Assembly: GCA_016936115.1 (NCBI GenBank)
Contig: JAFGPQ010000006.1
Coordinates: forward strand, 1-34,148
DNA length: 34,148 bases
DNA from: Spirochaetales bacterium
Lineage (GTDB): Bacteria; Spirochaetota; Spirochaetia; DSM-2461
Direction of reading: 5' to 3'
Of the stretch, positions 15,212 to 33,611 are shown piece after piece. A program made the position numbers and the translations under genes. Position 1 is the stretch's first letter. The number at the start of each line of letters is the position of its first letter. A model generated the notes under the pieces. It was given only the letters and a program-made list of their open reading frames with translations. It ran no database searches and had not been told where the DNA came from.

Positions 15212-15251
15212 GTCATGCCGATTATCATAACTTTTTGTGACGCAAGTCATG
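15212..15251. promoter_or_regulatory. Candidate operator between efflux operon and two-component system
   Basis: GTCATG occurs at 15212-15217 and again at 15246-15251, 34 bases apart, inside similar surroundings (TTGTCATGCCGATTA and AAGTCATGGGAATTG). The second copy is part of TGACGCAAGTCA (15238-15249), an inverted repeat of four-base arms. This is the divergent control region for pump and sensor, where a NarL-type regulator would be expected to bind. No consensus for this regulator is known to me. Confidence 0.3.
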
Positions 15252-19248: not shown

Positions 19249-19279
19249 GAGTTCTCCAAGGGAATGAAGGGGGGATCAC

Positions 19280-19308
19280 TTGACATATTTATAACACTGT
19301 TATATTTT
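19280..19308 (+). promoter_or_regulatory. Strong promoter with TetR-type operator in its spacer
   Basis: A perfect -35 TTGACA (19280-19285) and TATTTT (19303-19308) are 17 bases apart. The spacer contains TAACACTGTTA (19292-19302), an 11-bp palindrome with a central C. A repressor bound there would block the polymerase. The same palindrome family occurs three times before the second TetR gene at 33087. Transcription would start near 19315 and read the membrane-protein remnant, the TetR gene and the Nudix/GNAT genes. Confidence 0.8.
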
Positions 19309-19315
19309 ATTGATT

Positions 19316-19452
19316 ATTGATTCGCCGCGGGTTCCATGCCCCAGGGCTCTGCCCTGATCGAACGAATCAATCGAAGTGCTGCCATAGGCGGCGGCCATAG
19401 CGAACAAAAATATCCCGTAACCTTGGGTCGGGGATTTTTATTATCCCGGAGG
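19316..19452 (+). ncRNA. Structured leader RNA with alternative hairpins (candidate attenuator)
   Basis: The expected transcript begins with ATTGATTCG (19316-19324), which pairs perfectly with CGAATCAAT (19363-19371) and encloses CAGGGC-TCT-GCCCTG (19342-19356). Further on, ATCCCG (19412-19417) can pair with CGGGGAT (19429-19435), followed by TTTTT, like a terminator. The same GGGAT can instead pair with ATCCC at 19443-19447, right next to the GGAGG ribosome site (19448-19452). Two exclusive folds are therefore possible. No known riboswitch class was recognised. Confidence 0.45.
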
Positions 19453-19458
19453 TTTCCT

Positions 19459-19933
19459 GTGAGAAACGAATACAAACCCCTGATTACCCTCTCCGCCTGG
19501 GCGTTTGTCCTGAAGCTGATAGCCCTCTTCTCTGCCGGGACTGTGGCGGCCCTTTTACTGGTGATCGCTGCGGAATTTACGGAGATTCTGTTCTTTCTGT
19601 TCCTGTCGACGGGCCTGGAAAAGATGCCTGCCCAGGGGATTGTCACCTTTTCGCCCTATTCCCACAGTCTGGTTTCCGGAGTTCTGGCTTCCCTTCTCTT
19701 TTTTGCCATTGTCAGCCTCATCTACGGAAAGCGTCTTTCCCAATGACGGCCCTATTCCTATTTTCCTGAATCCGGATTATAACATAGGTCTGGGGCTCTG
19801 GCGGTACAGGATTCCCGCGCTGATACTGGAGTATGGAGGGACCGCCGCCGGATTGTGGCTTTGCCTTTCCACGATAAGGCGGAACAGAAAGAAGGGCATA
19901 AGGGGAAAGAATGGATCCGGAGAAACAGAATAA
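19459..19933 (+). pseudogene. Disrupted small integral membrane protein
   Basis: The start is GTG 19459 with GGAGG 6 bases upstream. The first frame (95 residues, ending 19746) has hydrophobic helices and the segment AAEFTEILFFLFLSTGLEKM, then FSPYSHSLVSGVLASLL. A second frame, shifted, continues with NIGLGLWRYRIPALILEYGGTAAGLWL to 19933. In the family I recall, a PYSHSL motif and a GLGLW motif belong to one protein of four to five TM helices with a conserved HW..D stretch between them, which is absent here. A frame-breaking deletion near 19740-19760 is the simplest reading. The 3' end overlaps the TetR start by 23 bases. Family assignment is tentative; sequencing error would give a frame shift but not the missing segment. 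Confidence 0.6.
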
Positions 19934-20510
19934 GAAATCGGAGCGGCTGAAACTCCATTTCGCCCAGACCGCCCACGATATGATTTTAAGGGACGGGATG
20001 GATGGTCTGTCCGTTCGGAAAATAGCCAGGGAAGCGGGATATACCTATGCCACCATCTACAACCACTTCGGCTGTCTCGATGAGCTTTTGTGGCACAGCC
20101 GGTCTCTCTTCATAGAAGATATCGCCCGTCACATGGCCCCGGCGGAATCCCAAAAGATCAACTCCCTCGACGAACTGACAGGGATATTCCGCCTCTATGC
20201 GGAATACTTCCTGGCCCATGGGGATGTATTCCGCTTTCTCTATTGCTACCCCCTTGATAAAGAGGCGAAGCGCATCGCCAGTCGGAATGAATCGGACCAG
20301 TTCCGCCGGCAGTTCATGGAAACCTTTCAATTCCTCATGGGAACGGGGCAATATACCTTTGAGGAGATCGGGTCCCTCTCCCGCACTCTGCTCTATACGA
20401 TTCACGGGTATCTGACCATGGCCCTGACCGAAAACGACAACCTCCAGAGCAGTCAGGTGGCGGAGGGCATCGGTACGGCGGTGAAGCAGCTCTTCAGTCG
20501 GGCCGTTTAG
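19911..20510 (+). CDS. TetR family transcriptional regulator (copy 1)
   Basis: A 199-residue regulator with an N-terminal TetR helix-turn-helix at about residues 14-60: LSVRKIAREAGYTYATIYNHFG, where the recognition helix is YTYATIYNHF. The rest is all-helical ligand-binding domain (about 70-195). It probably represses its own operon through TAACACTGTTA at 19292. The recognition helix is almost identical to that of the second TetR (33087), which has three such boxes. It lies 20 bases before the Nudix-Imm5 gene and is likely co-transcribed with it. Confidence 0.92.
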   Translation: MDPEKQNKKSERLKLHFAQTAHDMILRDGMDGLSVRKIAREAGYTYATIYNHFGCLDELLWHSRSLFIEDIARHMAPAESQKINSLDELTGIFRLYAEYFLAHGDVFRFLYCYPLDKEAKRIASRNESDQFRRQFMETFQFLMGTGQYTFEEIGSLSRTLLYTIHGYLTMALTENDNLQSSQVAEGIGTAVKQLFSRAV

Positions 20511-31061: not shown

Positions 31062-32912
31062 CTATTTCAGCACGAAACCGGACAGGGCGTTCTCAACAGA
31101 CTTCAGAGAATTATCCGTACTCCTGTTCTTGCTCATCATATCGGCGGACAGAGCCGAAATCTCCCCGGAAACGAGAGTGATATCGTTGACAGCCCCCATG
31201 ACGATCCGGCTGATATCCCTGAGACTTGTGATGGATTCGAGCATTTTCCTATCTCCCGTCCTCATATCACCTGCCCCCGTCAGAACGAGGTGGGAAAGGG
31301 ACTGCATCCGTTCCAGAGCAACTTCCAGTCTGTCGTTGAACTCCTTTACATTTCCCGTGAATTCATTCATGGATGTGACCGCTTTGCCCACTTCCTCCAC
31401 ATGGCTGTTAATTTCGACAAAGGAAGATCTCACGTCCAGGGATTCACTGCCCACTTGATCAATGCCGGTGATAACGTCTCTGAGATTGACTGTAATGCTT
31501 TTTGACTGCTCCGTGGATGTCTCCGCCAGTTTGCGGATTTCATCGGCAACGACAGAAAATCCCTTCCCCGCCTCTCCCGCATGGGCCGCTTCTATGGCGG
31601 CGTTCATGGCCAACAGATTCGTCTGCGCCGCCACGTTGGCAATAAGATCATTGGCGCCGATGAGATGCTCCGTCTTCTCCATAATGGATTTAACCCTTTC
31701 GGCCATGGCAACCAGCTTGATTTCGCTCTCTTTTGAAACACGGGCCAATTCCTCGGTCTTCTCCCGGTTCTGCCTTGTAAGCCCGTCCAGGCTGCTATTG
31801 GCATCGGAAAGCCGGTTGAGCGCCAATCCTGACTCATCGATGATATTGTTCAGATCGCTTATATGGTTTCCCAGTGCTTCAATGCCCGATGCCATCTCTT
31901 CGATGCCTGCTGTGGTCTCCGTAACATTGGCGCTATGCTCCTCCATCTGCTCCTTGGTAAGCTTAAGACTCATTTCGATCATTTCGAGAGAACCGGACAT
32001 AAGCTGAATCTGCTCACCAAGGGTAATCTTATCGGTCTTGAGAATATCGATCGAATCGACAAAGGAGTGCAGACTGGCATTAAGTTTGTTAAAAAGGAGA
32101 TTCGTCATAGCGGCCAGCTGTCCGATTTCATCACTTGTCATGACGCTTACCGAATCCCTGAAATCGCCGTCCGAACCGGCCTTCACACTTTCAAGCATTT
32201 CCCGAATCGGCCCGATTTCTCTCTTCAGGATGATCTTGAGAGAAATGACAAACAAAGTCAGGGCAAAGATAGTTGCCGCGGCAAAGAGGAAAGTCTCAGG
32301 AACGGGAGAGATGATTCCCAGCTCATCGATAATCCGATTTATCTTTGCCAGTCCGCAGTACATGGACGACAATCCCAAAAAAGGAGAAAGGATAATGAAA
32401 TAAAGCCTCGTACTGAGATTGACCGCGGAAAGGGGTTCGGAATTACGGGAACGGATCAGAATATCTACCCCGGAGAGCAGGAAAATAAGAGCCGGTATAT
32501 TGATTATAAGCTGGAACGCCAGAATAATCAGGAACGCGACGAAGACCAGAGTGGAGAGATTACGCCCCAGGAGGAGATACATTTCGACAGTCTGAAGAAT
32601 CGTTTCGACGGCCATGAGTACCAAGGGCAGTTTTCCATAAAGGGATACCCCTTTCCTGATAGAATCCCAATGCGAACCGGAGAGATAGGTGCCGGTCAAT
32701 CGCCTGAGGAGAAAACACATGCCGGCGGCCGGCAGCAGATTCATGAAAAGCCCCCCCAAAAAGACAGGCTGCATAAGCATATTAAGAAAATCCGCTCCGG
32801 AAATGATTCCCGAAGAATTGGCCAGCAGGAAAAAGAGAACGAGAGGGGAAAGGGTAATGGATAGGCTTATAAGAATCGTGACGCGGCGGACATATCCGGA
32901 TGGGGAATCCAT
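31062..32912 (-). CDS. Methyl-accepting chemotaxis protein with multi-TM input region
   Basis: A 616-residue chemoreceptor. The first about 245 residues have around six hydrophobic helices with short loops, so there is no periplasmic ligand domain. A HAMP-like segment follows ([22 protein letters not shown], then [17 protein letters not shown]), then the signalling domain with the conserved tip [23 protein letters not shown]. It should bind CheW/CheA through the tip. The start has AGGAG 7 bases upstream. The six-TM input is like that of intramembrane or redox/energy sensors. It is divergent from TetR copy 2, with 174 bases between. Confidence 0.9.
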
Positions 32913-33015: not shown

Positions 33016-33044
33016 TTGACTAACACTGTCAACATCATTAACAT
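33016..33044 (+). promoter_or_regulatory. Promoter of TetR copy 2, overlapped by operator boxes
   Basis: TTGACT (33016-33021) and TAACAT (33039-33044) are 17 bases apart. The -35 touches operator box 1 and the -10 lies inside box 2, so binding of the boxes would shut the promoter. An AAGGAGA ribosome site at 33071-33077 precedes the ATG at 33087. Confidence 0.5.
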
Positions 33045-33067
33045 TGTTAATATTATTAACAATGTTA
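33021..33067. promoter_or_regulatory. Triple TetR-type operator array, TAACAnTGTTA at 18-bp steps
   Basis: Three 11-bp palindromes start at 33021 (TAACACTGTCA), 33039 (TAACATTGTTA) and 33057 (TAACAATGTTA), each 18 bases from the next. Boxes 2 and 3 together make a perfect inverted repeat with 13-base arms around a 3-base centre (33039-33067). The same box occurs at 19292-19302 in the promoter of the other TetR operon. Autoregulation by the adjacent TetR protein is the obvious role. Confidence 0.88.
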
Positions 33068-33086: not shown

Positions 33087-33611
33087 ATGTCACCATCCCT
33101 GAAAGAAGAAAGAATAAGAGAGTATTTCATTAGGGCCGCCGAGGAGATTATCCGGGGCGAAGGAATCCGGGCCGCCTCGGCCAGGACCATTGCGGAGAGG
33201 GCCGGCTACAGTTACGCCACCATTTACAATCATTTTGAGGATCTGAACGATCTTTACACCCAGGTAGGCCTATCCATCCAGAGTGAGTGCCGGGAATTCG
33301 TTCAGAAACAGTCCCGAAAAAGGGAGACCGCCGCCGAGAGTGTTCAGGAGAAAGCCCGGTGGTACGTCACCTATTTTATTCAGTACCCCACACTTTTTCA
33401 TCTGTTTTTTGATAAATCGGTCCGCTTCAAACAGGAAGAGATCGGGCTGGACCGTTTTTTTACTTCTCTCATGGGTGATGACACCCGGGGAAGAGCCGGT
33501 TTCGAAGAGTATCTTTACGCCGTCCACGGGCTGATGCTCTTTGCTTTGAACCGATTCTCTCCCCTGGGTTATGATGAAGTGATGAGGAAGCTCGAAAAGC
33601 TTACAGCCTAA
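33087..33611 (+). CDS. TetR family transcriptional regulator (copy 2)
   Basis: A 174-residue regulator. The N-terminal helix-turn-helix is at about residues 15-50 (ASARTIAERAGYSYATIYNHFE), with recognition helix YSYATIYNHF, one residue different from copy 1 at 19911. The rest is a helical effector domain. It has three operator boxes immediately upstream and so should repress itself; with copy 1 sharing the same DNA motif, cross-regulation is likely. No target gene follows on its strand: galK converges with only 2 bases between stop codons. Confidence 0.92.
   Translation: MSPSLKEERIREYFIRAAEEIIRGEGIRAASARTIAERAGYSYATIYNHFEDLNDLYTQVGLSIQSECREFVQKQSRKRETAAESVQEKARWYVTYFIQYPTLFHLFFDKSVRFKQEEIGLDRFFTSLMGDDTRGRAGFEEYLYAVHGLMLFALNRFSPLGYDEVMRKLEKLTA

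Follow-up and report, generated by a model that had tools for sequence, protein, structure and literature searches.

A palindromic box before a TetR gene of a Spirochaetales bacterium as the predicted self-operator of a widely conserved TetR subfamily

The stretch of DNA analyzed here (the window, 34,148 nucleotides) contains two genes for TetR-family regulators, 14 kb apart, and the promoter regions upstream of both carry the same palindromic 11-mer. This raises the question of whether the boxes join the two regulators in one small cross-talking regulon, as an original prediction made from these letters proposed, or whether each gene has an operator of its own. We favor the second answer, and place a probability of about 0.88 on the reading that a deeply conserved TetR subfamily has its self-operator in these boxes, through which the TetR encoded at 33087 would repress its own gene by clamping its promoter. 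The features of the two loci are as follows.

19280..19308, + strand: sigma-70-type promoter, TTGACA-17-TATTTT, 10/12
19292..19302, no strand: predicted operator box TAACACTGTTA in the promoter spacer
19459..19746, + strand: membrane-protein-like ORF of 95 codons, located between the promoter and the TetR gene
19911..20510, + strand: 199-aa regulator of the TetR family, the second of the two, with recognition helix GYTYATIYNHF and placed in another clade
33016..33044, + strand: promoter candidate TTGACT-17-TAACAT, an arrangement common to the sister species G002
33021..33031, no strand: predicted operator box 1, TAACACTGTCA, one mismatch, overlapping a −35-like TTGACT at 33016
33039..33049, no strand: predicted operator box 2, TAACATTGTTA, with its 13-bp form TTAACATTGTTAA at 33038-33050
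33057..33067, no strand: predicted operator box 3, TAACAATGTTA, immediately 5' of the ribosome-binding site
33039..33067, no strand: boxes 2 and 3 as a perfect 29-bp palindrome, 14+1+14
33087..33611, + strand: 174-aa regulator of the TetR family with recognition helix GYSYATIYNHF, PF00440 (5e-9), predicted autorepressor

The box starts at 33021, 33039 and 33057 lie 30, 48 and 66 bp upstream of the 33087 start codon, with the coordinates and the exact 18-bp steps that had been predicted. Three copies of the box had been claimed; those at 33039 and 33057 are exact matches to TAACANTGTTA, and that at 33021 has one mismatch. In G002 the equivalent of box 1 is exact, giving three exact boxes in 18-bp steps. 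Boxes 2 and 3 do form a perfect palindrome, with arms of 14+1+14 rather than the 13+3+13 first given. The 7-bp gap between them (33050-33056) is ATATTAT, and TATTAT at 33051-33056 provides an alternative −10 element for the promoter. Under either −10 assignment the boxes would cover the −35, the spacer or −10, and the predicted start region.

The window contains four matches to the box with up to one mismatch, compared with 0.21 expected from shuffles, and none of 100 shuffles reaches four. A scan of the assembly (3.93 Mb in 368 contigs, 91% complete) for exact matches gave only four, of which three lie in the window, and none for a letter-reversed control pattern. Allowing up to one mismatch gives 39 sites genome-wide and 71 for the control, so that on this scale only exact sites are informative.

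Both proteins score 36.2 bits against Pfam PF00440 (TetR_N), where the curated cut-off is 24. The AlphaFold2 model of the 33087 protein has a pLDDT of 93, its top PDB fold matches are TetR proteins with 3cjd the best, and it is thus predicted to have the all-helical TetR fold. The cut-offs of the named NCBIfam equivalogs (RefZ, MtrR, BetI, FabR and others) were not reached, with best scores of 23.6 and 26.7 bits against 118-330. The recognition helices are as originally described, GYTYATIYNHF for the 19911 TetR and GYSYATIYNHF for the 33087 TetR; no other TetR of the genome resembles these two closely, and the helix is confined to them. They are 31% identical over 179 columns, chiefly in the DNA-binding half. 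The label 'copy 2' in the original prediction gives a misleading hint of recent duplication. The 33087 protein and its 81%-identical G002 orthologue (L082 1564-2061) are short, at 174 and 166 aa against ~196 in other members, and lack ~20-25 residues of the ligand-binding domain that those members have.

The association of box and gene was approached from the DNA and from the protein. When 395 genomes of the class were searched by DNA alone for a pair of boxes 18 bp apart, with up to two mismatches, 20 gave matches, and in eight of these (G000, G002, G048, G068, G098, G109, G129 and G167) the pair lies directly 5' of the orthologous TetR gene. The remaining matches look like AT-rich coincidences, two having been inspected in detail. 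Five come from small genomes of family f20; these were set aside, the one inspected (L077) lying inside an RND gene in an AT-rich genome and being taken as chance. From the protein side alone, 84,980 species genomes were searched by selecting on the recognition-helix peptide, so that the link from helix to box is not an independent variable within this search, and 80 loci were obtained, 67 of them non-redundant. They come from Bacteroidota, Ignavibacteriota, Neomarinimicrobiota (Fidelibacterota), Fibrobacterota, Balneolota, KSB1, Margulisiibacteriota, Kapaibacteria and Spirochaetota.

An exact box lies within 120 bp 5' of the TetR start in 46 of the 67 loci (shuffles 0.06). With up to one mismatch in these last 120 bp the number rises to 60 (shuffles 1.6), and with up to two to all 67 (shuffles 15.5). 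There are 49 exact boxes in the 7,967 bp of upstream sequence, and the remaining 490,426 bp of these loci have none. The 18-bp pair is found in 32/67 loci, where shuffles average 0.04; the next commonest spacings are 19 and 27, in seven loci each, and six of the 67 have three boxes in step. The median distance from box to TetR start is 49.5 bp. The exact box is absent from 21/67 loci, the 18-bp pair from 35/67 at the tolerance used, and some proteins of neighboring branches (L019/G051 and L021/G005) have no box. When more distant TetR genes with other helices were checked in the relatives, an exact box was found in L032 only; there an unrelated TetR gene in G059 is flanked by two box pairs, each with 14-bp spacing (1438-1462 and 2152-2176). 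The motif thus accompanies the 33087-type subfamily across at least eight phylum-level lineages, close 5' of the start and at a fixed 18-bp pitch, and from this distribution the boxes are very probably TetR operators. The 33087 TetR has both marks of the subfamily, the GYSYAT[LI]YN[YH]F helix and, no more than ~100 bp 5' of the start, a box that is exact or nearly so and often repeated at 18 bp.

Alignment of the loci on their best box gives the consensus TTAACANTGTTAATTATAT, followed by a second box of TTGCA/TAACA type, often TTGCANTGTTA. The T and A flanking the box are 98% conserved, and the operator is therefore taken as the 13-bp palindrome TTAACANTGTTAA. Of the 60 anchored loci, 24 have ATTATAT as the 7-bp gap, and the gap in the window aligns with this conserved sequence, which in relatives contains the −10/−7 element. 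In 16/60 the gap carries TATATTTG, into which it often runs in Bacteroidota. Flavobacterial sigma-A promoters have a −7 box TAnnTTTG (PMC9723704), with which TATATTTG is consistent; a gap running into such a −7 box would explain why the second box of Bacteroidota starts with TTG. In the Spirochaete G048 the gap position holds TATATT, 17 bp after TTGACA. We infer that the 18-bp pitch is the sum of an 11-bp box and a 7-bp gap containing the −10/−7 element. Helical phasing explains the conservation of the pitch less well, because 18 bp is ~1.7 helical turns and would place adjacent boxes on non-identical faces of the DNA, a geometry that also bears on the cooperative binding proposed in the original prediction. 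An apparent 9-bp lattice around the boxes was set aside as largely a by-product of their common TTA/TAA ends at 18-bp pitch. Cases were too few for co-variation of a helix residue with the outer base of the box (Y/F with T/G).

The sequence and spacing of the boxes, their conservation and their association with the subfamily suggest a scheme of binding, repression and induction. One TetR dimer would bind each 13-bp palindrome. In the canonical layout the first box fills the −35/−10 spacer and the second, 18 bp on, would cover the start-site side, so that the −10 element (in Bacteroidota the −7 TAnnTTTG) would be clamped between two dimers and RNA polymerase excluded. At the 33087 promoter a third box would additionally lie over the −35 region. 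A ligand that loosened the dimers would relieve the repression.

Such a system would resemble the autorepressors TetR, AcrR, MtrR and RamR in its TetR_N domain, all-helical fold and operator overlapping its own promoter. It differs in having no NCBIfam equivalog, mostly no conserved partner gene, and an operator kept across phyla. Like the dimer-of-dimers TetR proteins (QacR, CprB, CgmR and SlmA) it probably places more than one dimer on a promoter; of these proteins, QacR and CprB are known to bind cooperatively (PMC4150764). In QacR, CgmR and CprB two dimers share one site of 22-32 bp, whereas the window boxes are separate 13-bp palindromes at 18-bp pitch and do not form a single operator of that kind. 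Among solved structures the best match by both sequence and fold is 3cjd, a TetR from Jannaschia, with 21-22% identity. The SmcR/LuxR/HapR group is among the closer sequences and aligns over most of the length, with E-values of only ~5e-6; the SmcR operator is different and longer. In the freely accessible literature covered, the motif was not found in any paper and the subfamily was not recognized. The subfamily is apparently undescribed, though of known type, and what is new is the depth of conservation and the interleaving of operator and promoter. Autorepression operators usually drift fast, and it is unusual for such a site to be recognizable in at least eight phylum-level lineages. As the operator is predictable from the protein alone, regulator and operator make a ready-made pair, usable in Bacteroidota and Spirochaetota, where such parts are few. 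They also raise the question of the role of a widespread regulator whose sole conserved target is itself.

The second TetR gene presents a less direct arrangement. The 11-mer had been placed in a promoter at 19280-19308 leading to this gene. The box does lie between TTGACA and TATTTT, in a 17-bp spacer, but it is single, the TetR gene is 608 bp away, and a terminator-like hairpin and the 95-codon ORF intervene. Given that distance and the ORF, the 19292 box may govern the ORF, the TetR gene, or both. No relative of the ORF was found among 60 kin genomes. Within 19459-19933 a possible membrane-protein tail follows the ORF out of frame; the gene may have been frameshifted or have decayed, or it may be short and novel. 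A riboswitch between box and gene was considered and rejected; shuffled versions of the leader fold as well as the leader itself (z = −1.03), and neither the window nor the leader (19260-19920) has an Rfam match.

A tree of 80 proteins assigns the 19911 TetR to a clade of six rows (100/100), separate from the group of 68 rows to which the 33087 TetR belongs and outside the clade of 18-bp-pitch proteins, its exact placement being uncertain as the deep branches are long. In its relatives G013, G137 and G108 a pair of boxes with 20-bp spacing lies directly 5' of the gene, and the G013 box shares its right flank, TGTTATATTTTA, with the 19292 box. The 19911 TetR would then represent a sister clade that inherited the box, usually as a 20-bp pair and here as a single copy in the promoter spacer. 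Each of the two genes looks like an independent autorepressor with an inherited operator.

The strongest competitor is that the two TetR proteins are an evolved cross-regulating pair, each repressing the other's promoter through the common box. The same 11-mer, near-identical recognition helices and a separation of 14 kb in one genome speak for it, and the shared motif and helix do make cross-binding plausible, though that need not mean mutual regulation. The two proteins nevertheless belong to separate, fully supported clades with different pitch (18 and 20 bp), and the relatives of the 19911 TetR carry their pairs before their own genes. Among the genomes searched both types were found in this one only, G002 having the 33087 type alone and G013, G108 and G137 the 19911 type alone, and apart from the site on contig C65 described below this genome has no exact box outside these promoters. 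We consider a cross-regulating pair improbable, and the regulon is not supported in the form originally proposed.

A little less probable again is that control by the boxes extends equally to the TetR gene and to the divergent gene for a methyl-accepting chemotaxis protein (31062-32912, minus strand). The two start codons are <200 bp apart, a distance at which, in streptomycetes, the divergent gene is usually repressed by the TetR-family regulator (PMC3511530). In G002, however, the divergent gene is a different one, an ABC-permease-like ORF; upstream neighbors of the TetR loci are divergent or tandem about equally (36 to 39), and the boxes keep close to the TetR start, as the median distance given above indicates. 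Neighboring genes are not conserved in general, with 40 convergent, 24 co-directional and distant, and 12 co-directional and close. The commonest partner is a small GIY-YIG-like protein (11 loci), a possible functional partner of the TetR in Bacteroidota and Ignavibacteriota. Its gene is found just 3' of TetR in L102 (4771-5112), L107 (4584-4934), L110, L120, L133, L135, L137, L147 and L097, and in seven loci only a few bases separate the two genes. The TetR proteins of L103, L113, L124 and L138 are 359-367 aa long, with an extra C-terminal domain of ~165 aa; in L124, which was scanned, this gave only a weak match to DUF5846.

It is very unlikely that the boxes are bound by another, global regulator with further target genes. 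AT-rich palindromes do have binders other than TetR proteins, and the fourth exact box (C65:808; L001 799-818, G000 contig C65) lies in the leader or promoter region of an ABC solute-binding-protein gene. Yet a global regulator should have many sites. Double-box searches of 26 further genomes of the FCB group and related lineages recovered the TetR promoter, with other matches scattered and near control frequency; ten Spirochaete genomes have only two to seven 12-mer matches each, counting both strands, and no other recurrent target was found in these searches. The C65:808 box lies within a 20-bp palindrome with imperfect arms, TAACACGGGTAACAGTGTTA, adjoining a different TetR with the helix FTRSNIYKYY. 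We dropped it as a third regulon member, and from this arrangement it is probably an operator of the adjoining TetR itself. The promoter of the RND efflux operon near 15250 was likewise rejected as a target, no box-like site being found nearby. Chance palindromes in an AT-rich promoter, for which the base composition of the region and the symmetry of the box would speak, are refuted by the shuffles, the genome counts and the conservation across phyla.

The conserved output of the subfamily is, as far as these comparisons of sequence indicate, autoregulation. A bolder proposal, which we offer tentatively and think rather doubtful, is that regulators of this pan-phylum subfamily have almost no target but their own gene, the operator-promoter unit having been frozen since before the split of Bacteroidota and Spirochaetota or transferred as one unit. 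If true, the regulator would act on its own as a ligand-sensing switch, with an output other than classical repression of a neighboring gene.

Two further observations were made at other TetR genes. At the end of its contig, L001 has a GCAGAA-type hexamer repeat (1-85) running into the start of a TetR gene. In genomes of family f25 (L253-L265) several other TetR genes are preceded by TTGACANTGTAAAGAT, repeated at ~30 bp in L259 and L260, a different and apparently conserved TetR operator.
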